NCBI GenBank assembly: GCA_030037755.1
Contig: JASHQD010000774.1
Coordinates: 1-44,162, forward strand
Direction: 5' to 3'
DNA from: Terriglobia bacterium
Lineage (GTDB): Bacteria; Acidobacteriota; Terriglobia; UBA7540
DNA: 44,162 nt
Shown here: one piece after another, positions 14,914-43,771 of the stretch
How the letters are laid out: each line of letters opens with the position of its first letter
How positions within the stretch are numbered: position 1 is the first letter of the stretch
Program-made: the position numbers and the translations under genes
The notes under the pieces: model-generated
The model's input: only the letters and a program-made list of their open reading frames with translations
Database searches by the model: none
Told to the model about the DNA's origin: nothing

Positions 14914-14948
14914 TTTGACTGTTGACTGTCAACTGTCAACTGTTAACT
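14914..14948. repeat. Heptamer tract E1
   Basis: Five contiguous 7-nt units: TTTGACT, GTTGACT, GTCAACT, GTCAACT, GTTAACT. The first two are near-complements of the next two, so the tract folds on itself around a single central T (GTTGAC-T-GTCAAC). It occupies half of the 72-bp spacer between the methyltransferase-like gene and slt. Confidence 0.8.
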
Positions 14949-14952
14949 GAAC

Positions 14953-15570
14953 TCACTTCACCACCAACACCTCGCGCCAGCCCGAGCGCGTGAGAAACGT
15001 CTTCACGCTGCCGGTTGGCAACAAGCGATCGATCTCACGATTGCTCAGGGCAGGGTAAGGAAATGCTGCCATGCCGTCATGCGTGCGCGTCAATCCAGTG
15101 AGACCGTCAAGCTGCCATAGACAATCGGCGCCCGTCTCGAGGCGCGGCTCGCGCAGCAGGCAGAACAGGACCGCTCCGGTCTCCATCAGCTTATGGATCT
15201 GCAGCAGCACGTCGGCGAGCGCTTCACGCGGCAGAAGATCGAGCAGTTGCCAGCAGAATACGATGGAAAGCGACGAGGGAGCGACGGACGGCAATTCCGC
15301 GAGCAGCAACTCCGTGCGAAACACCGGAGTCTTGCGGGTGCGATCCCACAGTTCGGGCCGCTTCAGAGGAGAGATAAGATCGCCGCGATAGAGCCGGCCG
15401 CTGCGTCCCAGCAGAACGTTGAGCGTGGCCGAGCGGATGGGACCACAATCGAGCACGTAAGGGCGCGGGATGTCCTGAGCGTACTCCCAGAGCCATCGTA
15501 GACCGAAGCTGGAAGCGGGGGCGTTCTGGGAACCGATCCCCGTATCCGAGCGACCCGGTCTTGCCTGCAT
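14953..15570 (-). CDS. SAM-methyltransferase-fold protein, divergent
   Basis: The 205-residue protein has the layout of a class I methyltransferase. A first strand with YVLDCGPIRSATLNVLLGRSGR stands where the glycine-rich SAM loop would be, then YRGDL at the acidic end of strand 2, then SIVFCWQLLDLLPREALADVLLQIHKLMETGAVLFCLL for motifs IV-V. The glycine loop is not canonical, so catalysis is doubtful. The start ATG at 15570 is 4 bp from the bactofilin stop, so the two are co-translated or tightly coupled. Substrate unknown. Confidence 0.6.
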   Translation of the reverse strand: MQARPGRSDTGIGSQNAPASSFGLRWLWEYAQDIPRPYVLDCGPIRSATLNVLLGRSGRLYRGDLISPLKRPELWDRTRKTPVFRTELLLAELPSVAPSSLSIVFCWQLLDLLPREALADVLLQIHKLMETGAVLFCLLREPRLETGADCLWQLDGLTGLTRTHDGMAAFPYPALSNREIDRLLPTGSVKTFLTRSGWREVLVVK

Positions 15571-15574
15571 GGGT

Positions 15575-16096
15575 TTAGCTCGCGCGCTGGCTCACTGCCG
15601 GACGCGCCTGCGCCGATTCTGCGCGTCCTTCGCGGAGAATCTCGATGCTGCCCTTGAAATAGGCGCCGTCCTCGATCGCCACGCCGGCCGCCTGCAAGTC
15701 ACCCGTCACGTTGCCGGTGCGACGGATGTCGATCTTCTCACGCGCGCTGATTTTCCCGTTCACCGAACCATGGACGATCACCTGTCGCGCCCGGATCTCG
15801 GACTTCACCTGGCCTTGTGGACCGACGGTCACGGTGTTCTCCGCCACATCGATGGTGCCCTCGAACTGGCCCTCGATGACCAGGTCCTCCTTGGCGGAGA
15901 GCTCTCCCTTGATGGACATGGACCGTCCCAGCGTGGACGATGCTTGCCCGCTGCTCGGGGCGGGAGGACGCGGAGTGACATCTGCCATAGGTTTCTCCAT
16001 TCGAGGAGGCTCGGGCGGAGGCGGAACAGCTTCGGGACCGGGAACTGTCGGGCTCGAGCTCACACTTTCGGGTTTCTGTTTCTTATCCCACAACAT
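15575..16096 (-). CDS. Bactofilin (polymer-forming cytoskeletal protein)
   Basis: Bactofilins form nucleotide-free filaments at the membrane that recruit cell-wall enzymes. The 173-residue protein has a Pro-rich disordered N-terminus (1-60). The right-handed beta-helix core follows at about 60-155, with repeated 'G....v.G.v.G.i' turns (MSIKGELSAKEDLVIEGQFE, VTVGPQGQVKSEIRARQVIV, HGSVNGKISAREKIDIRRTG, VTGDLQAAGVAIEDGAYFKG). A short tail closes it. It is the first gene of a minus-strand cluster with the methyltransferase-like protein and slt. A candidate promoter lies at 16145-16173. Confidence 0.92.
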   Translation of the reverse strand: MLWDKKQKPESVSSSPTVPGPEAVPPPPEPPRMEKPMADVTPRPPAPSSGQASSTLGRSMSIKGELSAKEDLVIEGQFEGTIDVAENTVTVGPQGQVKSEIRARQVIVHGSVNGKISAREKIDIRRTGNVTGDLQAAGVAIEDGAYFKGSIEILREGRAESAQARPAVSQRAS

Positions 16097-16144
16097 TGGA
16101 TCTTGCTTCGCAAAAGCTGGCGATTAAGGCTCGCCAGTCGAGCT

Positions 16145-16173
16145 ATGTTACGACAATCGTTCGCCGATGGCAA
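16145..16173 (-). promoter_or_regulatory. Candidate bactofilin promoter
   Basis: On the minus strand TTGCCA (complement of 16168-16173) and TAACAT (complement of 16145-16150) are 17 bp apart. Transcription would begin about 42 bases before the bactofilin ATG at 16096. The -10 match is only moderate. Confidence 0.4.
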
Positions 16174-16183
16174 TCGTCAGGCG

Positions 16184-16320
16184 GTCAATCCGTCAGTATG
16201 TCAGTACATCAGTAGGTCAGTACGTCGGATTTCAGAGCTGACCGATCGGCGTAAAGTACCGAGCAACTTGCTGGCGCACTGACTTACTGATGTACTGACA
16301 TGCTGGCCGACTGACGTACT
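16184..16320. repeat. Octamer hairpin tract E2
   Basis: The left arm has five contiguous 8-nt units (GTCAATCC, GTCAGTAT, GTCAGTAC, ATCAGTAG, GTCAGTAC; 16184-16223). The right arm has six complementary ones (GCTGGCGC, ACTGACTT, ACTGATGT, ACTGACAT, GCTGGCCG, ACTGACGT; 16270-16317). The segment ATGTCAGTACATCAGTA at 16198-16214 is exactly complementary to 16285-16301, giving a 17-bp perfect stem inside a longer imperfect one. The 46-nt core between arms is non-repetitive. It fills most of the spacer between msrB and bactofilin. Confidence 0.85.
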
Positions 16321-16325
16321 CGAAA

Positions 16326-16916
16326 TCAAGTGTTCTTCACAAACTTGAGCGCCGCGGAATTCATGCAATAGCGCAGGCCTGTCGGCGGCGGGCCGTCGTC
16401 GAAAACGTGGCCGAGATGCGCGTCGCACAGCCTGCACTTCACTTCCGTGCGCTCCATGCCCAGGCTCGAATCGGCTCCGGTCTCGATGTTTTCCTCGGCA
16501 ATCGGCGCCCAGAAACTCGGCCAACCGGTTCCGGAATCGAACTTGGTCTTCGAGTCGAACAGCGCGTTGTCGCAGCAGATGCAACGGAAGATTCCCTTGT
16601 CATGCAGATTCCAGTACTGCCCGGTGAACGCTATCTCGGTGCCGGCGCGACGGGTCACATTGAACTGCTGCGGCGTAAGCTGCTTCTGCCACTCGGCGTC
16701 CGTCTTTACGACCTTTTGCATCTTTACGGCTCCTTCGCGCTTGCCCGCGTCTGTGAACTGGACAATCTTAACCGGTTTCAGATCGCGGGAGCCGGCGTCC
16801 GCTTCCGCTGCGGACGTTCCGGCGGCGATCGCCCTCTTGCGTGCGAACCACACGGCCGCGCCTGCAACCGCGCCCAACGATGCCAGGAATTCGCGGCGCG
16901 TTCCGGAAATCTTCAT
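16326..16916 (-). CDS. msrB: Peptide-methionine (R)-S-oxide reductase, Tat-exported
   Basis: Repairs methionine-R-sulfoxide in proteins. The 196-residue product begins with a twin-arginine signal ([19 protein letters not shown]), so it acts outside the cytoplasm. The MsrB domain starts near residue 75 ([20 protein letters not shown]). It has zinc-binding CxxC pairs in [11 protein letters not shown] and [14 protein letters not shown] and the substrate motif SGTGWPSF. The catalytic Cys is in [11 protein letters not shown]. All key residues are present. The gene is transcribed divergently from the glycoside hydrolase at 17048. A thioredoxin-type partner would be needed in the periplasm; none is adjacent. 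Confidence 0.93.
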
Positions 16917-16979
16917 GACCGACGCCCTCCCGAGGCGTCCATTGTATCAGATGCGGCGCGCCGGTCCGGCGCTACTCGC

Positions 16980-17002
16980 GAGCGGGCAGGATGCCCGCGC
17001 TC
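16980..17002. repeat. REP-like GC hairpin, copy 1
   Basis: GAGCGGGCA and TGCCCGCGCTC flank a GGA loop, forming a 9-bp stem with a 2-nt bulge. Read on the minus strand the core is GAGCGCGGGCATCCTGCCC, closely matching the second element at 20058-20112. It lies in the divergent spacer between msrB and the glycoside hydrolase, just upstream of a candidate promoter. Confidence 0.55.
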
Positions 17003-17006
17003 CAAA

Positions 17007-17015
17007 TGATATGAT
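17007..17015 (+). promoter_or_regulatory. Candidate extended -10 upstream of glycoside hydrolase
   Basis: TGATATGAT fits the extended -10 pattern TGnTATnAT and lies 33 bp before the ATG at 17048. No good -35 is visible, because the preceding bases belong to the REP-like hairpin. Similar words occur before the heptose adenylyltransferase and aceE genes. Confidence 0.35.
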
Positions 17016-17047
17016 CGCAGGCTCGTACGCTCCTTTGAGGTGACCGA

Positions 17048-18892
17048 ATGAATCGTCCGCTGCGCGTTCTTCTTGTATTGGCCGCCATTCTCGGATTTGT
17101 TCTGCCTTGCGCGACGGCGCAGCAGCCGAGCCGCGGAGCCGATCGGGATGCCGCGCCGGTTCCAACCGAGATCCCGCCGCGCCGCTCCTCGCAGATCCAC
17201 GACGGATTCGGCATCAACTCCGATCTTCCGCGCGACCCCTACCTGCCCTGGAACCGCTGGTGGTGGACTCGCATGTTTGACGCGGGCGTGAAATGGATCC
17301 GCATCGGCCAATATGAGAACAGCTCCGACCAGACGAGCTGGGACTGGATCGAACGCAAGCGCGGCGTGATGGAGGTCTCGCCGGAAGTGGACGACTACGT
17401 GGATTCGCTCGTCGACAACGGCGTCGAAATCCAGGTGCAGCTTCTGTACGGCAATCCGATGTACACCTCGCCCGCCGGCCGGAAGCCGGATTCGATCACT
17501 CCTGAGCCCGGCTCGTTTCACAATTCCGATCGCAGCCTCTACTCGGTTTTCTGGCCGCCCAAGACGCCGGAGCAGATCGAGGCTTTCACGCGTTACGTGA
17601 AGTTTATGGTGAGCCACTTTCGCGGACGCATTCGCTACTGGGCGCTGTGGAATGAGCAGGACATCGACTATTGGAATCCGGACCCGAGTCCGGAAGAGTA
17701 CGGCAGGCTGCTGAAGGCCTTCGTGCCGGCGGTGCACGAGACCGATCCCGAAGCCAAGGTGATCTACGGAGGACAAGCCTGGCCGCTCTCCCGCGACTTC
17801 ACCCGGCGCGCGCTCGCCACCTGTCAATGCGCGTCCGGAATCGACGTGTTCGCCTATCACATCTATCCCGACTACGGTCACAACCTGAATCCCGAGGCGG
17901 TTGACGACCGCGCCCACGCGGCTGGCGGCGGCAAAGTCGAGCGTGAATTGATCCGGCACACGCCCGGCGTGCGTCCGGACGCGCAATTCTGGTGCGACGA
18001 GTTCAACTCCATCCCGACCTGGACCAACATGGACGACTCGGTTCAGGTGAAATACATTCCGCGCCAACTGGTCTACAACTGGGCCGCTGGCGTAAAGACC
18101 TTTGTCTGGCTTCTTGCCTCGGGCACCGACGGCAACGAATACGACGACTTCGGCATGATCCACGGCTTGCGCTATCTGCCCGACGATTTCACGCCGCGGC
18201 CGGTTTACGCCGCTCTCGCGCACACCAATTGGCTCTTCTCGGATACGCGTCCGGACGATTCGATCAAGATTTCCAGTGCCGACTTTGAGGAGATCAGCAG
18301 GCGCGCCGGCGGTCAGGTGCTCACCTACGGATTCCGATCTCGCACCGGCAAGCCGATCGTCGCTTATTGGCTCGCCGTGCGAAGTCAGCCTGGCAATCAC
18401 TTCCCAACTTACACGGCCGATGTCCGCCTGTCAGCGACCGGCATCCGCCGTCCCGTTCTGATCGACGTGGACTCGGGCAGTGTCACCGCGCTCGCCTGGA
18501 AGGACGAATCCACGGGCGAACTTGGACCTGTGCCGGTGCGCGACAGCGTCATGGCGATTGCCGATGCGGACTACTTCGACTGGTCCACGCTGCCCGAAGC
18601 GCCGAGCTCGCTGATCGTGACCAACGAGGGCAACAGTTCGAGGCTGAGCTGGGAGCTGCATGGCGGCAATCCGACCAGCGTTGTCGTCGAGCGGCGTCTC
18701 GATAGCGAATCGGCCGGCTCGGGCGATGCTAACGGCACGGCTTCCTGGCAGAAGATCGCCACGCTTCAATCCGGAGCTTCGACTTATACCGATTCCGCGT
18801 TGCCGGACGGCGCTCGCGCGTCGTATCGTGTCAGGGCCTTGAACGCCAGCGGTGAATCGGCGTATTCCAACGTCGTTCGTTGGCCGCGATAA
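17048..18892 (+). CDS. Secreted clan-A glycoside hydrolase with C-terminal Fn3-like domain
   Basis: The 614-residue protein has a signal peptide ([19 protein letters not shown]). A TIM-barrel hydrolase of GH39/GH5-like (clan GH-A) type follows, with [11 protein letters not shown] near residue 80. The likely acid/base Glu is in [13 protein letters not shown] (about residue 202) and the likely nucleophile Glu is in FWCDEFNS (about residue 318). A beta-sandwich and an Fn3-like domain (about 515-614, ending [19 protein letters not shown]) close it. Substrate cannot be read from sequence. GAGGTGA precedes the ATG. It lies alone, divergent from msrB, so it is probably a monocistronic secreted polysaccharide-degrading enzyme. 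Confidence 0.8.
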
Positions 18893-19129
18893 AGTTAAAC
18901 TGTGCTGTCACGGTTGGCAGTGCCACAATTTCGGATCGTTCTCGCTGGTTGTCCCACGCTTGCTTCTTCAAGCGGCTATTGAGCGGCTGATGCGGATCAC
19001 CCGACTCCGCCGATATCGACACAGCGTCGTCGGTCAGCCATATCCCGATCAACTCCTCAAAAGCAGACCGCTGTGCTGGATTTTACGAAGAGGCCCTCCC
19101 CATATCTGGCGACCAACCTGCATCTTACA
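18893..19129 (+). other. Spacer with no recognisable gene
   Basis: The 237 bp after the glycoside hydrolase hold only open-frame shadows. A GTG-initiated frame at 19073 ([12 protein letters not shown]...) could be the displaced N-terminus of the DUF433 relic that follows in another frame. No terminator is obvious. Confidence 0.35.
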
Positions 19130-19357
19130 AGATTATCGTTGGATAGTTGCCGATCCCCGGCTTCTCGGCGGGAAGCTGGTGGTTCACGGCACGCGCCTTT
19201 CTGTGGCGCTGATTCTCGAGTGCCTGGCCAACGGCATGTCGCTCGAGCACATCGATGAGGCGTTCGATCGTGCTTTTCCTCACGAAGCCCTGCCTGGGGT
19301 CTTGAGGCTCGCGTCCGAGTTGACCGGTTCCTTCCATGTGGCTGCTTGGTACCAACA
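19130..19357 (+). pseudogene. Decayed DUF433 (antitoxin-like) gene
   Basis: Translation gives [20 protein letters not shown], then [40 protein letters not shown] and [11 protein letters not shown]. This is a full DUF433 domain, a helix-turn-helix family that includes VapB-type antitoxins. No start codon lies in frame nearby: the plausible GTG at 19073 is in another frame. The expected stop after HVAA is replaced by a TGG codon, so the frame reads on into the heptose adenylyltransferase gene. No PIN-like toxin partner follows. I read it as a frameshifted relic; a sequencing error could mimic this. Confidence 0.55.
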
Positions 19358-19490
19358 TGGACGTGTTGACCTTGAAGAGGGCTCTGCCTCACAAGAGCCT
19401 CGGAGGAGCAGTTCGAGAAGCGACGCCTTCCGCGGTTCGCGCGCCATCCCCGCACCCATGCAGGAACGACTCAGCGAAGAAGTACAGCTC

Positions 19491-19499
19491 TGCTATCAT
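19491..19499 (+). promoter_or_regulatory. Candidate extended -10 before heptose adenylyltransferase
   Basis: TGCTATCAT fits TGnTATnAT and is followed by CGAGG. It lies only 6 bp from the ATG at 19506, so either the message is nearly leaderless or translation starts further downstream. The same nine bases occur upstream of aceE (35321-35329). Confidence 0.35.
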
Positions 19500-19505
19500 C
19501 GAGGT

Positions 19506-20030
19506 ATGCAGGTCGGCAGCGCTCAAAGCACAGGTCGCCGCCGTAAGGTCCTGTCTCTCGATGAAGCCGTGGACCGCGTCCACGAGCTCAAGCGCCAGGG
19601 CGAGCGCGTGGTGTTCACTAACGGCTGCTTTGACCTGATCCATCCCGGACACACACGGTACCTCGAAGCCGCTCGCGCTCTCGGGGACGTGCTGGTGGTG
19701 GCGGTGAACAGCGACCGGACGGTGCGTCTGCTGAAGGGTCCCGGCCGGCCCGTGATCCCCGAGGCCGAGCGTATGGAGATGCTGGCGGCGTTGCGCGCCG
19801 TCGATTACGTCACGGTGTTCGACGATCCTACGCCGCGCGAAGTGATCGCCCGAATGCTGCCGCAAATTCTGGTGAAGGGCGCGGACTGGGGTCCGAACGC
19901 GATTGTTGGACGCGAAGAGGTTGAGGCGGCGGGCGGCGAAGTGGTTTCCATGCCCGTAGCCGAGGGCTTCTCGACCTCGGCGATCATCGAGAAAGTGAGA
20001 ACAGGGCAGCAGTCGACAGTCGACAGTTGA
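19506..20030 (+). CDS. rfaE2: D-glycero-beta-D-manno-heptose 1-phosphate adenylyltransferase
   Basis: Transfers AMP to heptose-1-phosphate to make ADP-heptose for lipopolysaccharide core synthesis. The 174-residue product is a nucleotidyltransferase. [20 protein letters not shown] contains the HxGH motif, and [19 protein letters not shown] and the C-terminal [11 protein letters not shown] follow. It is the stand-alone second domain of HldE; no kinase domain is attached or adjacent. ATG at 19506 is chosen because family similarity starts soon after; the frame is open upstream through the DUF433 relic. Its last residues (STVDS) are encoded by a heptamer repeat. Confidence 0.88.
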
Positions 20031-20031
20031 C
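20011..20031. repeat. Heptamer tract E3
   Basis: Three contiguous units AGTCGAC, AGTCGAC, AGTTGAC. They overlap the end of the heptose adenylyltransferase gene (stop at 20028-20030) and so encode its C-terminal residues. The first two units are self-complementary around GTCGAC. This is the shortest clear member of the family. Confidence 0.65.
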
Positions 20032-20057
20032 AGCCGGCGACCTACGAGTCCCGGTGT

Positions 20058-20112
20058 GTAGCGTGCGTGCCTGTCCCAGGCGCTCCGGGCGAGGGCGAGA
20101 CGCCCGCGCTAC
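20058..20112. repeat. REP-like three-way-junction element, copy 2
   Basis: GTAGCG (20058-20063) pairs with CGCTAC (20107-20112) as a closing stem. Inside it are two perfect hairpins, GCCTG-TCC-CAGGC (20069-20081) and GGGCG-AGA-CGCCC (20093-20105). The minus-strand core GTAGCGCGGGCGTCTCGCCC is a close relative of copy 1 at 16980-17002. It lies in the spacer between rfaE2 and mfd, 25 bp before the mfd start. Confidence 0.65.
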
Positions 20113-20137
20113 AGCGATTCGCGGTAGCCAGCAGATC

Positions 20138-23100: not shown

Positions 23101-23833
23101 CTACCAGTTGCGCGGTCGCGTGGGACGCTCTGACCGCCGCGCCTACGCCTATCTGCTGATTCCGGCCGAGGATTCGCTCACGCCGATCGCCCGGCGGCGG
23201 CTGGCGGCGCTCAAGGAGTTTTCCGATCTCGGCGCCGGATTCCGCCTGGCCGCGCTCGATCTGGAACTGCGCGGTGCCGGGAACGTTCTCGGCGCCGAAC
23301 AGTCGGGTCATCTTAATGCGATCGGGCTCGATCTCTATCTGAAGATGCTGGAGCAGACCGTGGAGGAACTGAAGGGCAATGCTCCGGCGCCCGAGGTGCA
23401 CACCACTCTCAACCTCGGATTGGACATCAAGATTCCCGACAGCTACATTGCCGACGAGATGCAGCGGCTGCGCATGTACAAGCGCATTTCGGGCCTGGCC
23501 AACGAAGCCGAGCGCGCGGACCTGGAGGCGGAACTGGCAGATCGTTACGGCCTCCTGCCTGCGCCGGTGACGACCCTGCTGGGCTACGCGGTGCTCAAGT
23601 CCGCAGCCGAGCAACTGCGGGTGCAATCGATCGAGCGCAAGGGCGACGAAGTATGGATTCGCTTTCATACCTTGTCGCCGGTCGATACGGACAAGTTGCG
23701 GCAGTTCATGCGCCGGCATCGCGAGGCGGTGCTGCGTCCGGACGGCTCGCTCAAGTTCCACGCGCGCGCCCAGGACTCGGCGCTGCTGGCGGAGTTGGAC
23801 GCAACCTTGCATGAGCTTCGCGCTTCGAACTAG
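20138..23833 (+). CDS. mfd: Transcription-repair coupling factor Mfd
   Basis: DNA translocase that removes stalled RNA polymerase at lesions and recruits UvrA. The 1,231-residue product has the UvrB-homology module (GTIAALPAFDCSPYQGRSPHPE, FSVRGGIVDVFPPESEWPVRIEF) and the RNA-polymerase interaction domain (VGDYVVHVDHGIAVYQGL). The RecG-like helicase follows with Walker A GDVGYGKTE (about 719-727), DEEQRFGV (about 821) and TATTIVENGLDIP-like VSTTIVENGLDIPRAN. The C-terminal TRCF domain closes it. It is longer than typical Mfd (about 1,150) because of a low-complexity Pro/Asp/Ala insert at about 355-440. The ATG at 20138 has only a weak Shine-Dalgarno. Confidence 0.95.
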   Translation: MSVIETQIEAAPSARDTLRARFAPLVEHPAIRAAREAVAATKGELTISGIVPVAKGFVLGAVALDAKRPLLVLTRDNESADRLARAAATFLSWLGGKPGTIAALPAFDCSPYQGRSPHPEILEQRALALWNIARGRTRVVVAPLAVALGRLSDASYYRSLALELKAGDEVSLADFAEHLVGIGYESTEPVAAPGQFSVRGGIVDVFPPESEWPVRIEFFGDEIESLREFDASSQRSRRAITSALILPLCEVKRSPGLFQILIRKLAAREESAGEPAWAAEYSVPFPGWEFFASLAEPRPNTLAALLAQSNEGGDPRHSGTSIPAVVWDEPLDRERDLIALEQDWAAGFDSVRDMSPPRPRPEDVFLTEPEFRASGDSGPRLGLKELGVGFIPALSDTGPDGDSEVQAAPAEPAADVEHNGDAPPGSLSGQSTEVQLNSQPAPRYQGSLKAWTDDVRNRVNAGESAILALAASGRAERLHEILGDYKVPYADATGRLGASAPLSEAQSSEGRLPLLIARGDVDEGVYFPDLKLLIESESDVFGGFDWGRPGRRDKSSVISTFISDLSDLKVGDYVVHVDHGIAVYQGLRQLEVEGKSRDFMLLTYQDDAKLYVPLERLDLVEKYRSGGDGVKPTLDRLGGVTWERTKTRVKKALRDMAQELLQLYAQRKTSGGVAYSPDTPWQKEFEEAFEFEETPDQLRALVEIKRDLETAEPMDRLLCGDVGYGKTELAMRAAFKVLQDGRQVAVLTPTTVLAFQHTSTFRKRMASFPVRIEMLSRFRAPSEQKSVVAEVQAGKVDIVIGTHRLLSKDVAFHNLGLLIVDEEQRFGVAAKEKLKKLRANVDVLTMSATPIPRTLHMSLGGLRDLSVIETPPRGRLAIQTTVAPFNDAVVQSAILQEMSREGQVYFVHNRVESIFAIAALIQRLVPTARIGVGHGQMGEKELERVMLKFIEYGYDVFVSTTIVENGLDIPRANTLIVNHAERFGLADLYQLRGRVGRSDRRAYAYLLIPAEDSLTPIARRRLAALKEFSDLGAGFRLAALDLELRGAGNVLGAEQSGHLNAIGLDLYLKMLEQTVEELKGNAPAPEVHTTLNLGLDIKIPDSYIADEMQRLRMYKRISGLANEAERADLEAELADRYGLLPAPVTTLLGYAVLKSAAEQLRVQSIERKGDEVWIRFHTLSPVDTDKLRQFMRRHREAVLRPDGSLKFHARAQDSALLAELDATLHELRASN

Positions 23834-27954: not shown

Positions 27955-28183
27955 GTCAGTTGTCAGTGGTCAGTCGTTGGTTGGCGGCTGTCGGCCGGTC
28001 GCTGGTTGTTGGTTTCTGTTTGTCCCTTCGATTCGTAGGTTCTGGATCGTTGACGCGCGTTCACGATCTACGAACGACCATCTACGATCTACAGCCAAAC
28101 GAACTTCCGGGAACTGATCACCGGCAACCGCCAACCGGCAACCAGCAACTGACAACCACTCGCCACCTGTCACTCGCCACTAC
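27955..28183. repeat. Composite heptamer hairpin element E4
   Basis: The left arm holds ten contiguous heptamers (27955-28024), starting GTCAGTT, GTCAGTG, GTCAGTC, GTTGGTT. The right arm holds nine (28121-28183), including CCGGCAA, CCGCCAA, CCGGCAA, CCAGCAA, CTGACAA. The arms are broadly complementary (GTTGG/CCAAC type). The core has its own heptamers (ATCTACG, AACGACC, ATCTACG, ATCTACA at 28066-28093) and a 7-bp stem TTCGTAG/CTACGAA. It fills the rsmI-dusB spacer and encodes the last residues of RsmI. Confidence 0.8.
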
Positions 28184-29685: not shown

Positions 29686-29953
29686 TCGGCACCGGGTTCA
29701 ACGCAGAGGCCACAGAGGAGGCCGAAAACGTGACAGCAGTGCAATCAGCCCCGCAGGCTGCTTTCCGGCAAACATGTGCCCTGTCCGGCACTTTCGGGGC
29801 CGAATTGTTTCTCGGCGCTCCCATCCGCAGGCTTGCGCCTTCGGCTAGTCGAGGTGTTGTCCCCGGGCAACGAGTCGGGGTGTTGCCCTTCGGGCAACGG
29901 GCGGACGATTCACCGAGCACAATCGCATCACGTCCCGGCGTTCCTCGATCCCA
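29686..29953. terminator. Convergent spacer with clustered GC hairpins
   Basis: This 268-bp spacer lies between the converging kinase-family and xseA genes. It contains GTTGTCCCCGGGCAAC (29856-29871) and GTTGCCC-TTC-GGGCAAC (29882-29898), two related stems 10 bp apart, plus CCGCAGGCT twice (about 29751 and 29825) and the repeated word CAGAGG near 29704-29717. No gene is credible here. The stems could end transcription from both sides. Confidence 0.5.
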
Positions 29954-31312
29954 TCACGTCTTCGCGTTCCTCACTTCCGCTTCCAACTCCCCGCTGGCAA
30001 GCCTGATTGAGATCTCGCTTCCCGCGGAGACCTGCCTCGCGTCACGCACGATGCGTCCGGCGGCGTCGCGCGTGATCGAGTATCCGCGCCTGAGAATCGC
30101 CATGGGATTCCGCTCCTCGAGCAACGCCCGATCGTGCGCGAGGCGATTCCGCTGCTCGCTCAGGGCGCGATCGATGGCCGCGTCGAGACAGCCCGCGCGC
30201 TCCCGAACGGTTCCGCGGCGGATCTCGAGGAAGCGCTCGAAGTCGTAGCGGACCAGTCCGGGCGCAATCTGCATCAACTGACGGCGCGCCGCGCCCAGCC
30301 GGCGCGCCATGGACGCGTTCAGTGCCGCGGCAGCTTCGTCGATGCGCTGCGCCCGTTGCACGATGCGCGTTGCCAGCGTTTGAAACACGCGATGCGCGCT
30401 CATTTCGCCGAGCCGATGCCGAGCTTCGGCAAGACGCAAGCGTACGCATTGCCCGAGATGGCGCGCTCGGCTCTCGACCTCGGATTCGAAATCGGAGCGG
30501 CGCCGAACCACCAGTTCCGCCGCTGCCGACGGCGTCGGCGCGCGCAGGTCAGCGACAAAATCGGCGATGGTGAAGTCGGTCTCATGGCCCACGGCGGAAA
30601 CCACAGGCACTCGCGAAGCGGAGATCGCCCGCGCTACACTCTCCTCGTTGAACGCCCATAGGTCCTCAAGCGATCCGCCGCCGCGCGCCACGATCAGCAC
30701 GTCCACGCCGGGCCAGCGGTTGATACACCGGATCCCCTCCGCGATCTCCGCCGCCGCGCCTTCGCCCTGTACGCGCACGGGATAGAGTAGCGCGTTGATG
30801 TTCCGAAACCGGCGGCGCAGAACCCGCAGAATGTCGCGAATCACCGCCCCGGTCGGCGAGGTCACGATCCCGATCGTCCGCGGCAGCACCGGCAGCGGCT
30901 TCTTGCGGGCCGAATCGAACAGGCCTTCAGCGGCCAGCCGCGCCTTGAGCTGGTCGAAGGCGAGCTGCAGCGCACCAAGTCCCGCGGGCTCCAGAAGCTC
31001 GACGATCAACTGGTATTCGCCGCGCGCCTCGTAGACGCTGAGCTGTCCGCGCGCGATCACCGAGAGCCCGTCGGCCGGCTTGAACTTCAGATATCGCGCC
31101 TGGCTGCGGAAACAGACAGCGCGGAGCTGGGCCTTGGAGTCTTTCAGCGTGAAGTACAGGTGACCGGAGCTCGCGGGACGAAAATTCGAAATCTCGCCCG
31201 TAACCCATACGTCCGGGAATTGCTCCTCGAACAGAGCGCGGATCTCTTCGCTGATCTCCGAGACGGTGAAGATCTTGCGCTGCGGTTTAAAGTCGAGAAG
31301 AGCTTGTTCCAT
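29954..31312 (-). CDS. xseA: Exodeoxyribonuclease VII large subunit
   Basis: Large subunit of a single-strand-specific nuclease used in repair. The 452-residue protein has an N-terminal OB-fold ([42 protein letters not shown]). The catalytic domain follows with [44 protein letters not shown] and [32 protein letters not shown] long coiled coil and a C-terminal [14 protein letters not shown] segment end it. The small subunit gene xseB does not follow. The ATG at 31312 lies beside heptamer element E5, leaving a weak Shine-Dalgarno. Confidence 0.94.
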
Positions 31313-31321
31313 AGCAAGCTT

Positions 31322-31406
31322 TCAGCCATCAGTTATCGGCCGTCAGCCATCAGCTCTCAACCATGTTTCTCGGCTGAAGGCTGAGTGCTGAGAGCTGAAG
31401 GCTCAT
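31322..31406. repeat. Heptamer hairpin element E5
   Basis: The left arm is TCAGCCA, TCAGTTA, TCGGCCG, TCAGCCA, TCAGCTC, TCAACCA (31322-31363). The right arm is GGCTGAA, GGCTGAG, TGCTGAG, AGCTGAA, GGCTCAT (31372-31406). CAGCTCTCA at 31351-31359 is exactly complementary to TGAGAGCTG at 31389-31397. The element spans nearly the whole spacer between the DUF2905 gene and xseA and includes the DUF2905 stop codon. Confidence 0.85.
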
Positions 31407-31648
31407 GGTTTCCTCAAATAGGAAATCAGCCACATCACTGCGGTGATGACGGCGCTGAGCACGAGGCACGTGACGAGCGGAAAATAGAATGAAACGTGCC
31501 TGCCCTTGTAAGCGACGTCGCCGGGCAGGCGGCCGAAGTGCAGGAATCCGAGCCGCGTGACCCCCATCAGCAGCAACCCGATCACTACCAGCACCGTGCC
31601 CAGGGTCACCGCTATTTTGCCGAGCTGATACGTGATCGGATCCGCCAT
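31403..31648 (-). CDS. DUF2905 family small membrane protein
   Basis: The 81-residue protein has two membrane helices (about residues 10-30 and 55-77) around the family signature LGFLHFGRLPGDVAYKGRHVSFYFPLVTCLVLS. DUF2905 proteins are widespread and uncharacterised inner-membrane proteins, often close to ruvB or queA; here the neighbour is xseA, 90 bp downstream. It is divergent from padR. The C-terminal residues come from the heptamer element. Function unknown. Confidence 0.88.
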   Translation of the reverse strand: MADPITYQLGKIAVTLGTVLVVIGLLLMGVTRLGFLHFGRLPGDVAYKGRHVSFYFPLVTCLVLSAVITAVMWLISYLRKP

Positions 31649-35149: not shown

Positions 35150-35307
35150 GTTGTCAGTGGTCCGCTATTGTCGGTTCTCGGTTGGAGGTTCGTAAATCGT
35201 CGATCGTAGCTCGTGGTTCTAGCGATCCGCGATCTACGGTCCAACCGAAGCCGAACGATCCACAACCACGACCGGCAACCGACAACCAAGAACCGGCGAC
35301 TGTCACC
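35150..35307. repeat. Composite heptamer hairpin element E6
   Basis: Ten contiguous heptamers form the left arm (35150-35219), among them TCGGTTC, TCGGTTG, GAGGTTC, GTCGATC, GTAGCTC, GTGGTTC. Ten form the right arm (35231-35300), among them GATCTAC, CCACGAC, CGGCAAC, CGACAAC, CAAGAAC, CGGCGAC. The inner left words GGTTC/GGTTG are complementary to the GAACC/CAACC of the right arm. Words such as GATCTAC are shared with the core of E4. It lies between the ADOP permease and aceE. Confidence 0.8.
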
Positions 35308-35320: not shown

Positions 35321-35329
35321 TGCTATCAT
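35321..35329 (+). promoter_or_regulatory. Candidate extended -10 upstream of aceE operon
   Basis: TGCTATCAT matches TGnTATnAT, identical to the word before rfaE2. A partial -35 (CTGTCA, 35300-35305) is 18 bp upstream and overlaps the end of repeat E6. The leader to the aceE ATG would be about 200 nt, and I see no gene in it. Confidence 0.4.
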
Positions 35330-38219: not shown

Positions 38220-38222
38220 TAG

Positions 38223-38339
38223 GGGTCAGGGATCAGGGGCCAGGGACATTGTCACGGACCAGGGACGAAGGCCATGAACGACGCATCGGACGGGCAACTG
38301 ACCACTGACAACCACTGACAACTGACGACTAACCACTGT
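38223..38339. repeat. Heptamer element E7
   Basis: The left part has GGGTCAG, GGATCAG, GGGCCAG (38223-38243) and then looser GG-ACC words. The right part has CAACTGA, CCACTGA, a 3-nt interruption, CCACTGA, CAACTGA, CGACTAA, CCACTGT (38295-38339). The arms are only partly complementary (GGTCAG/CTGACC). It separates aceE from aceF inside the pyruvate dehydrogenase operon and stops 10 bp before the aceF ATG. Confidence 0.75.
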
Positions 38340-38349
38340 TTGGAGAGAC

Positions 38350-40092
38350 ATGTCGACGGAATTCAGACTGCCGGAGCTTGGAGAGAACGTCGCGAAGGGC
38401 GACCTAGTGAAGGTGCTGGTGTCGGTCGGTGACGTTATCAGCAAAGACCAGTCCGTCATCGAGCTTGAGACGGAGAAGGCCACGCTCGAAGTGCCTTCTT
38501 CGGTCGGCGGCAAAGTGGAATCGATTCTCGTCAAGCCCGGCGAACAAGTGAAAGTCGGTCAGGTAATCCTCACCGTGAGCGACGGTACGCAGGACGCGGG
38601 ACGGTCCGCGGCGGACGCCCAGGTTGCGCCAAGCTCGCGGCCCGAGCCGTCCAAGCTGAAGGTCAATGGCGCGGAGGTTGCCGCGAGCGCGGATCCGGCG
38701 GCTGCTGAACCGGCGCAGCAAGCGCCCGAAACTCCGATGCGAGTGCAGCCGGCGGGCGCAACCTCGGAATTCAGACTCCCAGAGCTTGGCGAGAACGTCG
38801 AGAAGGGCGATCTGCTCAAGGTGCTGGTCTCTGTTGGAGACGTCATCAGCCAGGAGCAGCCGGTATTGGAACTCGAGACCGAAAAGGCGACGCTCGAAGT
38901 GCCATCCTCGGTCAACGGGCGAGTGAAAGAGATTCACGTGAAGGCCGGCGACAAGGTGAAAGTCGGCCAATTGATCTTCACGGTCGAGGGCGGCGCAACC
39001 GGCGGCGCGGCGGGTAAGGCGAAAATGCCCGCGGCCGAGAAGTCATCTGCGGCGCCGCCCGTATCCACGGCGCCGGCTGCGGCTGCCGCTCGAGCAGATG
39101 TACCTCCGCCTGCTGTTCGAGAGGCGCCTTCTGCGGCCCCGGCGGTTCCGGCGAGAGAAGCTGTTCCTGCGACCGCGACGGGCGAGAAGCGCCTGGTTCC
39201 CGCGGCGCCTTCCGTGCGGCGCATGGCGCGTGAACTCGGGGTGGATATTGCGCAAGTGCCGGGCAGCGGTCCTCGCGGACGCATTTCGGCCGAAGACGTA
39301 AAGGCGTATGTCCGGAACCTCAACACCGAGCGCCGGGCAGGCGGAGTGCGGATTGGCGCGTCCGTACCGATGCCGGATTTCTCGCGTTGGGGCGCCGTCG
39401 AGCGCGAATCGATGAGGGCCGTGCGGCGCGCGACAGCGTCACACCTGGCTCACGCCTGGGTCACGGTTCCACGGGTGACGCAGCATGATCGCGCCGACAT
39501 CACGCACATCGAGGGTCTTCGGAAGCAGCATTCGAAGAGAGTGGAAGGGCAAGGCGGCAAGCTGACGATCACGGCGATCGCCCTGAAGATCGTCGCCTCG
39601 GCGCTGCACAAGTTTCCGCAGTTCGCGGCCAGTATCGATCCGGAGCGCGAGGAGATCATCTACAAGAAATATCGCCACATCGGCGTCGCCGTAGACACGG
39701 ACCGCGGGCTGCTGGTGCCGGTCATCCGCGATGTGGACAAGAAGAACATCGTCGAGCTTTCGGTGGAACTCGCGCAGGTGGCCGAGAAGGCGCGCAATCG
39801 CAAGCTCGCGCCCGAGGAGATGGAAGGCGGCGTCTTCAGCATCAGCAATCTGGGCGGCATCGGAGGCACGTCGTTCACGCCGATCGTGAACTGGCCTGAG
39901 GTCGCGATCCTGGGCATGTCGCGATCGAATCTCGAGCCGGTTTACGTCGACGGCCAGTTCCAGCCGCGCCTGATGCTTCCGCTGTCGCTGTCCTACGATC
40001 ATCGGTTGATCGATGGCGCCGACGCGGCGCGCTTCCTGCGCTGGGTCGCGGAGGCGTTGGAACAGCCGTTCCTGATTCCTTTCGAGGGCTGA
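38350..40092 (+). CDS. aceF: Pyruvate dehydrogenase E2, dihydrolipoamide acetyltransferase
   Basis: Forms the core of the complex and transfers acetyl groups to CoA. The 580-residue protein has two lipoyl domains (about 1-78 and 137-215). Each begins EFRLPELGENV and carries ELETEKATLEVPSSV with the lipoylated Lys. Ala/Pro-rich linkers separate them from the peripheral-subunit-binding domain (SVRRMARELGVDIAQVPGSGPRGRISAEDVKAYV, about 283-318). The catalytic domain ends with LSLSYDHRLIDGADAARF, containing the active His. GGAGAG precedes ATG 38350. The two lipoyl domains are highly similar to each other, suggesting recent duplication or gene conversion. Confidence 0.96.
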   Translation: MSTEFRLPELGENVAKGDLVKVLVSVGDVISKDQSVIELETEKATLEVPSSVGGKVESILVKPGEQVKVGQVILTVSDGTQDAGRSAADAQVAPSSRPEPSKLKVNGAEVAASADPAAAEPAQQAPETPMRVQPAGATSEFRLPELGENVEKGDLLKVLVSVGDVISQEQPVLELETEKATLEVPSSVNGRVKEIHVKAGDKVKVGQLIFTVEGGATGGAAGKAKMPAAEKSSAAPPVSTAPAAAAARADVPPPAVREAPSAAPAVPAREAVPATATGEKRLVPAAPSVRRMARELGVDIAQVPGSGPRGRISAEDVKAYVRNLNTERRAGGVRIGASVPMPDFSRWGAVERESMRAVRRATASHLAHAWVTVPRVTQHDRADITHIEGLRKQHSKRVEGQGGKLTITAIALKIVASALHKFPQFAASIDPEREEIIYKKYRHIGVAVDTDRGLLVPVIRDVDKKNIVELSVELAQVAEKARNRKLAPEEMEGGVFSISNLGGIGGTSFTPIVNWPEVAILGMSRSNLEPVYVDGQFQPRLMLPLSLSYDHRLIDGADAARFLRWVAEALEQPFLIPFEG

Positions 40093-40164
40093 GACTTTCC
40101 TCGGATCCTCAATCCCGAAAGCAGCACAAGCGCGCATACCCGTCGAGGAGGCAACGGACTCACC

Positions 40165-41586
40165 ATGGCTGAGCAGGCAGACAAAACTCAACTGGTCGTG
40201 ATCGGAGGCGGACCTGGAGGCTACGCAGCTGCGTTTCTCGCTGCCGATCTCGGAATGCGCGTCGCGCTCGTGGACGTGGAGGTGAATCCCGGCGGTGTTT
40301 GCCTCTATCGCGGCTGCATTCCGTCGAAAGCGCTGCTGCACGCGGCGCGCGTGCTGACGGAAGCGCGCGAGGCAGCACACTGGGGAATCGAGTTCCAGCC
40401 ACCTAAGATCGATATCGACAAGCTGCGCGAGTGGAAGACGGGCGTCGTCAGCAAGCTGACGGGCGGGCTGGGCCAGGTCTCAAAGCAGCGCCACGTGGAC
40501 TACATCCGCGGAACCGCATCGTTCGTCGACCCGAACACGGTCAGCATCGAGACCGCGAAGGCCGAACGCCGCCTCACCTTCGAGCACGCGATCATCGCGA
40601 CGGGATCGCTCCCGGCGATGCTGCCGGGTCTCCCGAAGAGCGAGCGCATCCTCGACTCGACGTCCGCGCTCGACATCGCAAACGTGCCGAAGACGCTGCT
40701 GGTGATCGGTGGAGGCTACATCGGGCTCGAGATTGGCACCGTGTATGCGGCGCTCGGCAGCGAAGTGTCCGTCGTGGAAATGCTCGACGGACTGCTGCCC
40801 GGAGCCGACCGCGATCTCGTAGCGCCGCTCGGCAAACGTGTCGAGAAGATCTTCAAAAAGGTCATGCTCAACACCAAGGTTGCGGAGATGAGAGAAGAGG
40901 AGAACGGTCTGAGTGTGAAGTTCGAAGGCGCGGGCGCGGAGGGCGGCGAACAAGTCTATGAGAAGGTGCTGGTCTCCGTCGGCCGCAAACCGAACTCGGC
41001 GATTGCCGGACTCGACAAGACGCGCGTGCAGAAAGACGCGAAGGGCTTCATCCAAATCGACCCTCAGCGCCGCACCGCCGAACCTTCAATCTATGCCGTC
41101 GGCGATGTGGCCGGCGAGCCGATGCTGGCGCACAAGGCGTCGCACGAAGGACGCACCGCCGTCGAGGCGATCGCCGGACACAAGGTGGCGTTTGAACCGC
41201 GCGCGATTCCGGCTGTAGTCTTCACCGATCCCGAAGTGGCATGGTGCGGCCTTACGGAGACTCAGGCCGCGAAGGAGAATCGCCCCATCAAGGTGGCGCG
41301 CTTTCCCTGGGCAGCGTCGGGACGCGCGACCACGTTGGATCGCACGGACGGCGTCACCAAGCTCATTCTCGACCCCGAAAGCGAGCGCGTACTCGGAGTA
41401 GGCATTACCGGTGTAGGCTCCGGCGAGCTGATCGCCGAAGGCGTGCTGGCGGTGGAGATGGCGGCGCTTGCTTCTGACATCAGCCTGACCATCCATCCGC
41501 ATCCCACGCTTTCCGAGACGGTGATGGAAACGGCGGAAGTGTTCTTCGGGACTGCGACCGATATTTATCGGCCGAAGAAAGCTTGA
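40165..41586 (+). CDS. lpdA: Dihydrolipoyl dehydrogenase (E3)
   Basis: FAD enzyme that reoxidises the lipoyl groups of E2. The 473-residue protein has the FAD-binding VVIGGGPGGYAAAFLAADLG and the redox disulphide in GGVCLYRGCIPSKALLHAARV. The NAD motif is LLVIGGGYIGLEIGTVYAALGSEVSVVE, and IYAVGDVAGEPMLAHKASHEGRTAVEAIAG follows. The C-terminal active-site segment is SLTIHPHPTLSETVMETAE. GAGGAGG lies 13 bp before the ATG, longer than usual. It is the third gene of the operon, 72 bp after aceF. Confidence 0.96.
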   Translation: MAEQADKTQLVVIGGGPGGYAAAFLAADLGMRVALVDVEVNPGGVCLYRGCIPSKALLHAARVLTEAREAAHWGIEFQPPKIDIDKLREWKTGVVSKLTGGLGQVSKQRHVDYIRGTASFVDPNTVSIETAKAERRLTFEHAIIATGSLPAMLPGLPKSERILDSTSALDIANVPKTLLVIGGGYIGLEIGTVYAALGSEVSVVEMLDGLLPGADRDLVAPLGKRVEKIFKKVMLNTKVAEMREEENGLSVKFEGAGAEGGEQVYEKVLVSVGRKPNSAIAGLDKTRVQKDAKGFIQIDPQRRTAEPSIYAVGDVAGEPMLAHKASHEGRTAVEAIAGHKVAFEPRAIPAVVFTDPEVAWCGLTETQAAKENRPIKVARFPWAASGRATTLDRTDGVTKLILDPESERVLGVGITGVGSGELIAEGVLAVEMAALASDISLTIHPHPTLSETVMETAEVFFGTATDIYRPKKA

Positions 41587-41604
41587 GGAGGACCAGGAGT
41601 AGCA

Positions 41605-41622
41605 AGCCTAAAGCTTGAGGCT
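41605..41622. terminator. Palindrome at convergent gene ends
   Basis: AGCCTAAAGCTTGAGGCT is an 18-bp palindrome with one mismatched pair. It sits where lpdA (ends 41586) meets the opposing carbinolamine dehydratase gene (ends 41608) and overlaps the latter's final codons. It has no U tract, so termination activity is uncertain. Confidence 0.35.
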
Positions 41623-41952
41623 ATCGATTCGAACTGCCAGAATAAAGTCGTTTTCGGTCAGGCCGCCCGCCGCGTGCGTCCACAGCGCAATCTCGACCTT
41701 TCCCCAGCCAACCGTGATGTCCGGATGATGCCCTTCCGATTCAGCGACTTCAGCCACGCGATTCACGAAGGCTAGCGCAGTCTTGAAATCCGGGAATTTC
41801 CAGGACTTACGCAGATGATGTCCGTTTACAATCTCCCAGCCCGGAACCTGCCCCTGGAGTGAGTCGATAGCCTGTGGGTCGAGCGGCTTCACGCCGCCTT
41901 CGCAGGGAACGCAGTGGCGGCTGGCAAGAGCCGAAGTGGAAGTGTTGCTCAC
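41608..41952 (-). CDS. phhB: Pterin-4a-carbinolamine dehydratase
   Basis: Recycles the tetrahydrobiopterin cofactor after aromatic hydroxylation, or acts in pterin metabolism. The 114-residue product matches the DCoH fold: WKFPDFKTALAFVNRVAEVAESEGHHPDITVGWGKVEIALWTHAAGGLTENDFILAVRID, with the catalytic His-His pair. I chose GTG at 41952 because GGAGG lies about eight bases upstream; the frame is open further but the extra residues are not family-like. It follows the Hfq-like gene by 25 bp on the same strand. No phenylalanine hydroxylase is visible. Confidence 0.9.
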   Translation of the reverse strand: MSNTSTSALASRHCVPCEGGVKPLDPQAIDSLQGQVPGWEIVNGHHLRKSWKFPDFKTALAFVNRVAEVAESEGHHPDITVGWGKVEIALWTHAAGGLTENDFILAVRIDSLKL

Positions 41953-41977
41953 AGCCGTGCCCTCCGCGACAGAGTGT

Positions 41978-42325
41978 TCATTCTCCGTGTGAATTCTCTC
42001 CCGCCCCGTTCTTGGCATCGCTCTGCTTGTAGATATAGCGGATGCATGACTTGAAGATGAGCAGATTGGGCTCGCCGTTGCGATGCACCTTGATGCAGTT
42101 CCGGTCGTACCACTCAATCACGCCGCGGATCGTCTCTCCAGTGTCCAGCACCACCACCATCGGCGTGCGCGCCTGCATTTGCTTGACGTAATAAAAGCTC
42201 TCGGCGTTCGTCTGATCAGGGGGCGTCGGCTTGCGGCGGCCCGTGCGCCCGCCCTGCATCTGCTCCTGGATCTCCGACAGGCTGGGCCGGATTAGTTTAC
42301 GATTCACGCTCACAACGTCCTTCAT
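41978..42325 (-). CDS. hfq: Hfq-like RNA chaperone (Sm fold), divergent
   Basis: The 115-residue protein has a basic N-terminal arm (KLIRPSLSEIQEQMQGGRTGRRKPTPPD). An Sm-like domain follows: AESFYYVKQMQARTPMVVVLDTGETIRGVIEWYDRNCIKVHRNGEPNLLIFKSCIRYIYKQ. It has the Hfq Sm1 shape (strand, G..I.G.I...D...I). At the Sm2 site, FKSCI replaces the usual YKHAI, losing the conserved His. Hfq normally forms a hexamer that pairs small RNAs with mRNAs; altered Sm2 residues could change U-tract binding. GAGG lies about eight bases before the ATG. A candidate promoter is at 42489-42517. Confidence 0.75.
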   Translation of the reverse strand: MKDVVSVNRKLIRPSLSEIQEQMQGGRTGRRKPTPPDQTNAESFYYVKQMQARTPMVVVLDTGETIRGVIEWYDRNCIKVHRNGEPNLLIFKSCIRYIYKQSDAKNGAGENSHGE

Positions 42326-42488
42326 GCGAGTACCTCAGGCCGGGTCCGCCTCCGAGACTGTCTCTCAAAGAAATGCGTAACCGGTTTTCTGTGCATTGGA
42401 TCGGATCTATGCCGACTCCCCAGGCAGATCAACAAACTCTGTGAAGATCAAACCTGAAGTTAATCTAGCACGCATCGCGATACCGGGC

Positions 42489-42517
42489 AATATCCTTCAA
42501 CTGATATTTCAAGTCAA
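42489..42517 (-). promoter_or_regulatory. Candidate promoter for hfq-like gene
   Basis: On the minus strand TTGACT (complement of 42512-42517) and GATATT (complement of 42489-42494) are 17 bp apart. The start would be about 155 nt upstream of the hfq-like ATG. The surrounding 213-bp spacer (42326-42538) is AT-richer than the genes, and otherwise shows only the dyad CTGGTT-A-AACCAG at 42546-42558, inside the end of holB. Confidence 0.45.
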
Positions 42518-42538
42518 GCGCAATCTTGTGCGGTATGT

Positions 42539-43648
42539 TTACAATCTGGTTAAACCAGTTTGCCCGGCGTCGCGGCGGCTTGATACCATGCCGACCGCGA
42601 GCGAGTCCAGGCCCAGCTGCTGATTCACGTTTCTAATCTGCAGCCGATGAGCTTCGTCGAGCCCCTCCTTCAGCGCCACGATGCCCGCGAATCCAAACGT
42701 CGATGCCCAGGTCTTCAGGCGCGGAATCAGGTCCAGGTGCGAAACCTGCGCGCCTTCACCGCGTTCGAGCACCAGCAGCAAATCGCGCAGCAACTCCGTG
42801 CCGGTGGCCAGCATGTCATCGAAGCTGTCGCGATCGCCGCTCAGCTTGCGCGTGGAATCAAACAACTGCTGCCAATCCGGAGCGCGCGCGCGTGGACCAA
42901 GCCCGGCGCTCAGGCTTTGGAAGAACTCCAGCCAGACATCCCGTCGCGCGAGGCAGGCGGGCAGATCGAATCCGAGTGCCCGACCCACGCTGCCATGCGA
43001 AAGCCTGGCCACCAGCCGCTGCTTCGGTTCCGGAACGTTGGTACGATCTTTGATCAACTCGAGAATCAGCTCTTCATCGACGGGCGAGAACGCCAGCCGC
43101 TGGCAGCGCGATCGGATGGTGGAACGCAGCTCCCCTGCATTGGGACACACGAGGATGAAGGTTGTCGTTTCGGGCGGTTCTTCCAGGACTTTCAGCAGCA
43201 GGTCCACCGCCTGCCAGTGAATATCCTGCGCCTGATCGATGATGAAGAAGCGGCGAGGCAACTCGAACGGCCGCGTATATGCCACCTGCCGCAGCACGCG
43301 GATTTGTTCACTCAGGATGTAGCGCGTAATCGGCGCGATCACCTGCAGGTCGAAGTAGACCAGTCCTTCGACCCGCCGCGCCGAGTCCTTCGCCTCGCGC
43401 CGCTTCGCAAGGTCTTCCTGAGCGGATGCGATCATCTCGGCAGCGCGGCGGCAATGCCGGCACTCGCCACAGAAGTCGTCCTTCAGACGCTCGCAAACCG
43501 CAGCTTGCGCCAGCATGAGTGCCAGCGTCTTTTTGCCCACGCCTTCGGGACCGGTGAAGAGCAGCGCACCGGGCAAACGGTCCGCGTGTAACATCTCGCG
43601 GACGGTCTGGACGGCGGACGGATTTCCGATGAATCTTTCGAAGCCCAT
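42539..43648 (-). CDS. holB: DNA polymerase III delta' subunit
   Basis: Clamp-loader subunit. The 369-residue protein starts GFERFIGNPSAVQTVREMLHADRLPGALLFTGPEGVGKKTLA, with a Walker A at about 33-40. The zinc-binding cysteines are in CERLKDDFCGECRHCRRA. FFIIDQAQDIHWQAVDLLLKVLEEPPETTTFILV and LRSTIRSRCQRLAF, holding the SRC motif, follow. E. coli delta' has lost its P-loop; this one keeps it. It lies downstream of tmk, as in many bacteria, with heptamer element E8 between them. Confidence 0.92.
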   Translation of the reverse strand: MGFERFIGNPSAVQTVREMLHADRLPGALLFTGPEGVGKKTLALMLAQAAVCERLKDDFCGECRHCRRAAEMIASAQEDLAKRREAKDSARRVEGLVYFDLQVIAPITRYILSEQIRVLRQVAYTRPFELPRRFFIIDQAQDIHWQAVDLLLKVLEEPPETTTFILVCPNAGELRSTIRSRCQRLAFSPVDEELILELIKDRTNVPEPKQRLVARLSHGSVGRALGFDLPACLARRDVWLEFFQSLSAGLGPRARAPDWQQLFDSTRKLSGDRDSFDDMLATGTELLRDLLLVLERGEGAQVSHLDLIPRLKTWASTFGFAGIVALKEGLDEAHRLQIRNVNQQLGLDSLAVGMVSSRRDAGQTGLTRL

Positions 43649-43662
43649 GGTTCAAGTTAGAA

Positions 43663-43771
43663 GTCTGAAGGCTGAAGTCTGAAGGCTGAAGTCTGAAAGC
43701 TGAAGCCAAAACTGATTCTGTTTTCATATTTCAGCCTTCATACTTCATACTTCATACTTCACACTTCAGCC
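43663..43771. repeat. Heptamer hairpin element E8 (clearest example)
   Basis: The left arm is six perfect-phase units: GTCTGAA, GGCTGAA, GTCTGAA, GGCTGAA, GTCTGAA, AGCTGAA (43663-43704). The right arm is six complementary-type units: TTCAGCC, TTCATAC, TTCATAC, TTCATAC, TTCACAC, TTCAGCC (43730-43771). The 25-nt core is AT-rich. It fills the tmk-holB spacer and encodes the last five residues of Tmk (LKCEV). Confidence 0.9.

Follow-up and report, generated by a model that had tools for sequence, protein, structure and literature searches.

Degenerate heptad arrays, often in facing pairs, in the intergenic spacers of an acidobacterial genome

Introduction

Heptameric repeats have been described in several groups of bacteria. 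Short tandemly repeated repetitive (STRR) or simple sequence repeat (SSR) heptamers are intergenic in cyanobacteria, in Beggiatoaceae (TAACTGA) and in Xanthomonas (GGGANTN), and most of the Xanthomonas heptamers lie between corresponding genes in two species, with changes in both length and sequence (PMC4679880, PMC4692102). The over-representation of heptamers in bacteria was noted in 2007 and tentatively ascribed to polymerase slippage, according to the part of PMC4692102 that cites that work. Degenerate heptamers also build the P6b stems of Nostoc trnL introns, where Class I (TDNGATT) and Class II (NNTGAGT) motifs are distinguished (PMC4476775), and they can be read by a protein: ParB/omega of plasmid pSM19035 is a ribbon-helix-helix protein that binds WATCACW heptads and requires at least four contiguous heptads for full activity (PMC9499535). 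Repetitive extragenic palindromes (REPs) and the REP doublets forming hairpins (REPINs) are palindromes tagged by GTAG or CGTC (PMC3733652, PMC3116915). Here we analyze heptad arrays in a 44,162-nt stretch of DNA from a Terriglobia bacterium (the window), which is the whole of contig C613 in a 6.68 Mb, 802-contig metagenome-assembled genome (MAG) of an acidobacterium (G000). The nearest named relatives of its aceE belong to Acidobacteriota. An initial annotation of this DNA had described eight tracts of back-to-back 7-nt units, one of them based on 8 nt. All eight were recovered where it had placed them, the octad tract being 16184-16320, and they belong to recurring families, the best-resolved of which has a core, letter bias and facing polarity common to two phyla.

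Results

The best-resolved family is GTC[A/C]GT[N], in which a fixed core is combined with free positions and each arm holds about four units. We compared it between the window's genome, its genus sister (G001) and the planctomycete Lacipirellula limnantheis (G061), an isolate with a complete chromosome; all comparisons rest on species representatives. The modal array length is four units in each of the three genomes, and the free letters are biased in the same way. Position 4 is A at.53-.63 and C at.28-.35, with G rare and T at most.02, while position 7 follows the order T > G > C > A, with T at about half and A at most.09; the seeds used here required the core, which inflates core constancy and leaves these free-letter frequencies unaffected. 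The arms face as GTC..GAC in 13/13 cases in G000, 2/2 in G001 and 22/22 in L. limnantheis. A GTCNGTN-type 24-mer pattern gave about 105 hits in L. limnantheis, and the reversed pattern gave one. Its elements measure about 75-110 bp. In the usual layout, four heptads and TTGC lead into a loop, unrelated in sequence, which is followed by the facing arm, and loop-proximal TTGC/GCAA ends recur among the Lacipirellula elements. Misassembly of the MAG was rejected as a source of such hairpins because the complete chromosome of the isolate has equivalent ones. Within the window's phylum, the GTCMGTN pattern was present in 50 of 396 genomes, with few hits for a reversed-pattern control. The richest carrier seen, another genome of this phylum (G135), holds 851 GTCMGTN hits.

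The fixed polarity of facing arms extends to other families. When hairpins with a common unit were compared within and among G000 and related genomes, the 5' arms had one and the same strand of that unit in 605 comparisons and opposite strands in 45 (93% concordant), compared with 50 +/- 3% and a maximum of 66% when strands were flipped at random. Between G000 and Lacipirellula, 947 comparisons agreed and 32 disagreed, mostly through the GTC family; outside this family, 24 unit classes agreed between the phyla and 8 disagreed (p = 0.007). A GC-rich 5' arm (60/73) was considered as the underlying rule and rejected. The TCAGCC family breaks it, and family identity therefore fits polarity better than GC richness does. 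Unlike the heptad families, the CTTTGCGC/GCGCAAAG octad hairpins of Lacipirellula (L258:5540-5611, L259:4455-4539, L262:12088-12163) occur in both polarities.

The initial annotation had read the arrays as products of slipped-strand copying, perhaps templated across the hairpin. This amounts to neutral heptanucleotide repeats, grown by replication slippage in 7-nt steps and kept complementary by template switching across the hairpin (quasipalindrome correction). Traces of slippage do exist. A 14-nt higher-order repeat lies at 43660, in the left arm of the GAAGNNT hairpin, and several of the 50 pattern-bearing genomes have free letters that are uniform along an array (runs such as GTCAGTA or GTCCGTT), as expected of slippage. 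Indels of 7 nt are reported between Cyanothece strains (PMC4679880), and a polymerase-footprint explanation of heptamers is mentioned where PMC4692102 cites it. The slippage component of the earlier reading is retained, but slippage alone does not predict that core, letter bias and polarity should be common to two phyla. Simple copying slips leave this agreement unexplained, and we consider the neutral reading as a whole unlikely.

Growth across the hairpin would be expected to leave its mark on the free letters, and these proved independent between the two arms. In Lacipirellula, opposite-arm free letters matched at 0.42 for position 4 (0.49 expected) and at 0.23 for position 7 (0.30 expected); the corresponding values in G000 were 0.35 (0.47 expected) and 0.42 (0.40 expected). 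Arms paired with their own partner hardly better than with a same-unit arm from another element (21.6 versus 20.0; p = 0.26). A unit-permutation test did return more in-register pairing than expected (1422 versus 1240 +/- 22), which favors the neutral reading, but we do not regard this excess as proving templating, since most of it disappeared in the cross-element control. Two composite elements (L217:5277-5432 and L195:3192-3369) also carry zones mirrored in the same order in both arms. Some coordination between arms is possible, given these two elements and the in-register excess. In the GTC family, however, templating base by base is not the rule, and the independence of its free letters leaves the proposed copying across the hairpin unsupported.

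Orthologous spacers show what is kept and what is replaced. The flanks of orthologous elements in L. limnantheis and a related Lacipirellula genome (G071) are 74-96% identical. Over 14 orthologous arms, the free letters differ at 41/84 positions and the core letters at 1/252, the latter figure being biased in that the G071 arms were read from pattern-search matches showing intact cores only. Of the 26 arms located, at least 14 have an intact core, a count with p = 3e-8 under a core divergence of 12% and 5e-6 under one of 10%. The free-letter changes are mostly transversions (29 versus 13), as if re-drawn from a pool, and the free letters of orthologous arms resemble each other little more than those of random pairs do (permutation p = 0.03). 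Intact cores next to re-drawn free letters again argue against the neutral reading. Turnover reaches the arrays themselves in the window's genus: among 37 much diverged spacers orthologous between G000 and G001, arrays occur in 12 and 8, respectively, and 7 spacers have arrays in both genomes (Fisher p = 5e-4, uncorrected for spacer length). The spacer orthologous to 31313-31408 retains the TCAGCNN unit in G001. The aceE-aceF spacer of G001 (L160 10777-11405) measures about 630 bp and holds other heptad arrays and an apparent small HicB-like gene.

The arrays might instead be written at DNA ends, with a polymerase adding heptads to both 3' ends of a break, each consisting of a core copied from a template and one or two letters added without one, before the ends are joined. 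Such a process would predict that the facing polarity is fixed, that the two arms are independent and the loops unrelated, and that a single core occurs in arrays of both 7 and 8 nt. Taken alone, it leaves both the intact cores of orthologs and the recurrent loop-proximal TTGC/GCAA ends unexplained. To our knowledge, no bacterial enzyme acts in this way, and we regard such an origin as very unlikely.

The scan for 7- and 8-nt autocorrelation proposed in the initial annotation placed period 7 first and period 8 second. Lag-7 match segments numbered 9 in the window and 23 in 156 kb of other G000 contigs, with none in Markov shuffles. In the 156 kb, 7 segments were found at lag 8; each of lags 4-6 and 9-13 yielded 0-2, and lag 14 is a harmonic. 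Half of the G000 loci had been picked for GTCAGT hits, and density was therefore taken from unselected contigs only, where it is about 15 period-7 arrays per 100 kb; extrapolation gives about 1,000 period-7 segments per genome. Within the window's family, array density is similar in G001 and G004, and samples of G002, G007, G011 and G015 hold almost none. In 1.53 Mb of mixed loci, 39 period-7 segments were counted against 1-6 for periods 4, 5, 10, 11 and 13. Contigs from Vicinamibacteria, Anaerolineae, Desulfobacterales and Pirellulales (L089, L093, L126, L149) also carry period-7 arrays. A dominant 7-nt period is consistent with neutral repeats, and the earlier view that one period underlies many unit sequences holds.

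A unit of its own for each spacer had also been proposed, which is accurate only spacer by spacer. For most tracts, the exact consensus unit recurs in other sampled spacers, and often in other genomes as well (AACTGAC in 10 more arrays of the sample, ACAGTCG in 13 more); no exact recurrence was found there for the 14910 array, the left arm of 31317 or the left arm of 43654. The units are recurring degenerate families, not private to each spacer. Altogether, 232 arrays fall into 120 rotation-and-strand unit classes, with the recurrent classes at the top. Variation within arrays is concentrated by unit column under a null matched for lag score (396 invariant columns versus 338 +/- 7.5 expected), and a multinomial null gave no signal of such concentration.

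Arrays are concentrated between genes, which were called with a simple script: of the 111 elements sampled, 91 lie in spacers, although these account for 18% of the DNA surveyed, and the spacers concerned include all gene-pair orientations. About half of the elements are facing pairs, 79/164 scoring at least 14 for inverted pairing, a hairpin threshold that no shuffle reached. Their edges lie mostly within about 20 nt of the adjoining stop codon, and 30/37 Lacipirellula hairpins sit between co-directional genes. These positions, together with strong folds, are what would be expected if the hairpins acted in the transcript as stabilizers, processing sites or insulators of neighboring cistrons, roles that have been suggested for some REPs. 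Structure alone, however, leaves a primary sequence common to two phyla unexplained, and free positions are unmatched between arms. Convergent spacers hold few elements (1/37 Lacipirellula hairpins, versus 34/235 spacers being convergent). Terminator-like sites are not enriched either: a stem followed by a T run was found 17 times versus 15.3 in shuffles, and 7 times versus 8.2 (14800-44162), and intrinsic terminators were rejected. Such a function in the transcript appears quite unlikely to us.

Head-to-head doublets in many intergenic copies also recall mobile elements of the REPIN or miniature inverted-repeat transposable element (MITE) kind, with the arrays as their arms. The Lacipirellula copies, however, differ at free letters and enclose unrelated loops (mean identity 0.28), and 18 of these elements showed no target-site duplication of at least 4 nt. 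In the GTC family of Lacipirellula, few outer flanks carry a REP tag (GTAG in 2/36, CGTC in 1/36). Genes for REP-associated tyrosine transposases (RAYTs) do not track the arrays across 28 genomes: G011 had 9 matches and G041 had 5, both being almost array-free in our samples, and none exceeded the cut-off in G135 despite its 851 pattern hits. Tagged REPs and MITEs were rejected on tags, RAYTs, target-site duplications and loop interiors, and a mobile origin of this kind seems highly improbable.

The tracts of the window are listed in Table 1.

Table 1. Heptad and octad tracts of the window; fold z scores are for RNA folds taken against dinucleotide shuffles.
Position	Type	Parts	Context	Scores
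14910-14949	Lone heptad array	TTGACTG units switching to TCAACTG		Lag-7 score 23; fold z -2.9
16184-16315	Octad hairpin	5' arm 16184-16224 (GTCAGTNN), core, 3' arm 16275-16315		Inverted score 29, shuffled maximum 9; fold z -9.4 (16184-16320)
20010-20033	Lone AGTCGAC array	Short, not two-armed	Overlaps the last codons of an open reading frame (ORF) ending at 20030, with its TGA stop inside the array	Fold z -2.3
27955-28183	Composite hairpin	GTCAGTN/GTYNGTN heptads outside (27955-28021), units of the ACGATCT type inside (28063-28092), 3' arm (28120-28181)	Occupies the spacer that separates a dihydrouridine synthase gene from one of the tetrapyrrole-methylase family	Fold z -3.9
31313-31408	TCAGCNN hairpin		On the start-codon side of the gene for the large subunit of exonuclease VII	Fold z -4.9 (31317-31408)
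35150-35307	GTYNGTN hairpin	Inner CGATCTAC-type units	Upstream of aceE	Fold z -4.2
38221-38337	Two facing arrays	GGTCAGG-type 38221-38245; NACTGAC-type 38290-38337	Fill the aceE-aceF spacer	Fold z -0.9, hairpin not significant (38221-38339)
43649-43774	GAAGNNT hairpin		On the start-codon side of a gene like that for DNA polymerase III delta'	Inverted score 32, shuffled maximum 9; fold z -7.8 (43654-43774)

Five of the eight spacers fold significantly, in keeping with the description of most tracts as hairpins with facing arms, which does not extend to the aceE-aceF spacer or to the two lone arrays. Taking this together with the results above, the initial interpretation is partly supported. The window contains two further features of other kinds. 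Two tandem pairs of 26-bp repeats, different in kind from the heptads, adjoin the exonuclease VII gene (29847-29972), and a Tad/Flp-type pilus cluster with CpaB-, CpaC-, CpaE-, CpaF-, TadB- and TadC-like products, assigned by ORF reading alone, lies at 995-8119.

Discussion

Our preferred explanation, which we hold only tentatively, is that the arrays are degenerate heptad and octad families whose core is under sequence-specific constraint, while slippage and unit exchange renew the free letters. We favor a sequence-specific constraint because the two phyla agree in which positions are fixed and which are free, and many orthologs keep this arrangement. The arrays would then comprise several degenerate families, often as two facing clusters able to form a hairpin, and a putative sequence-specific reader would work along each array at a 7-nt pitch. 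By analogy with ParB/omega of pSM19035, the most likely reader would be a protein that binds the DNA by stacking along adjoining heptads, with a reader of the transcript as the alternative. Selection for reading would keep the core and the facing arrangement, while whole-unit slippage and exchange between copies would change how many units an array has and draw its free letters anew. This turnover may be further advanced in the window's genus, so that an orthologous spacer would usually carry another family.

Several observations weigh against this explanation. No cognate protein was found, and none was sought. The 120 consensus unit classes would require several readers or one loose reader, and the octad arrays share the GTCAGT core plus two free letters, which a protein stacking strictly at 7 bp would not read. 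The main exception to the agreement described above is the AAGGCTG family, which does not have one polarity in the two phyla. Only one of the seven spacers with arrays in both G000 and G001 has a unit in common, which is turnover and not conservation. In the Lacipirellula comparison, ascertainment hides any core change in the other 12 of the 26 arms of G071, these 26 arms represent 13 spacers placed by flank matches, some of them one-sided, and 14 intact arms are no longer unusual if cores had diverged by 5% (p = 0.10).

It is also possible, though doubtful, that a patchily distributed, hitherto undescribed sequence-specific system in several phyla reads or writes a 7-nt-phased degenerate code, laid down as directional, facing arrays in spacers. 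As a cultured organism with about 105 GTC-type hits, L. limnantheis offers a place to seek the reader or writer of such a code. The open-access literature that we searched, which leaves subscription papers aside, contained no report of a polarity rule, of arm independence or of a consensus common to phyla. Polarity, a core and bias common to two phyla, arm independence and intact ortholog cores sharpen the loose idea of slippage into testable claims.

Of the known systems, REPs and REPINs resemble the arrays in that they too are numerous small palindromes between genes, frequently paired in opposite orientation and frequently behind coding regions, whereas the arrays have arms made of heptads, carry no tag, show no link to RAYTs and do not consist of near-identical copies. 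The parS sites of pSM19035 likewise have unspaced 7-bp units with a fixed core, variable edge letters, and both direct and inverted orientation, but they are plasmid-borne, serve one protein and have the consensus WATCACW, in contrast to GTCMGTN and the other cores found here. The likeness to heptanucleotide STRRs and to trnL P6b stems suggested in the initial annotation is upheld. Like the arrays, P6b is a hairpin stem of degenerate heptamers in which two motifs can take one role, and it undergoes 7-nt repeat changes, sometimes on a single side of the stem (PMC4476775). Unlike them, it belongs to a group I intron, a candidate that was rejected for the window, where no match reached the Rfam gathering score. 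STRRs and SSRs share with the arrays contiguous 7-nt units, an intergenic location, degenerate positions and some inverted pairs. The window's arrays differ from them in having many families per genome, facing pairs in about half of the elements, a fixed polarity, a core and letter bias common to two phyla, and free letters that are independent between arms. We file the arrays with the heptameric bacterial repeats (STRR/SSR), as a variant of that group.

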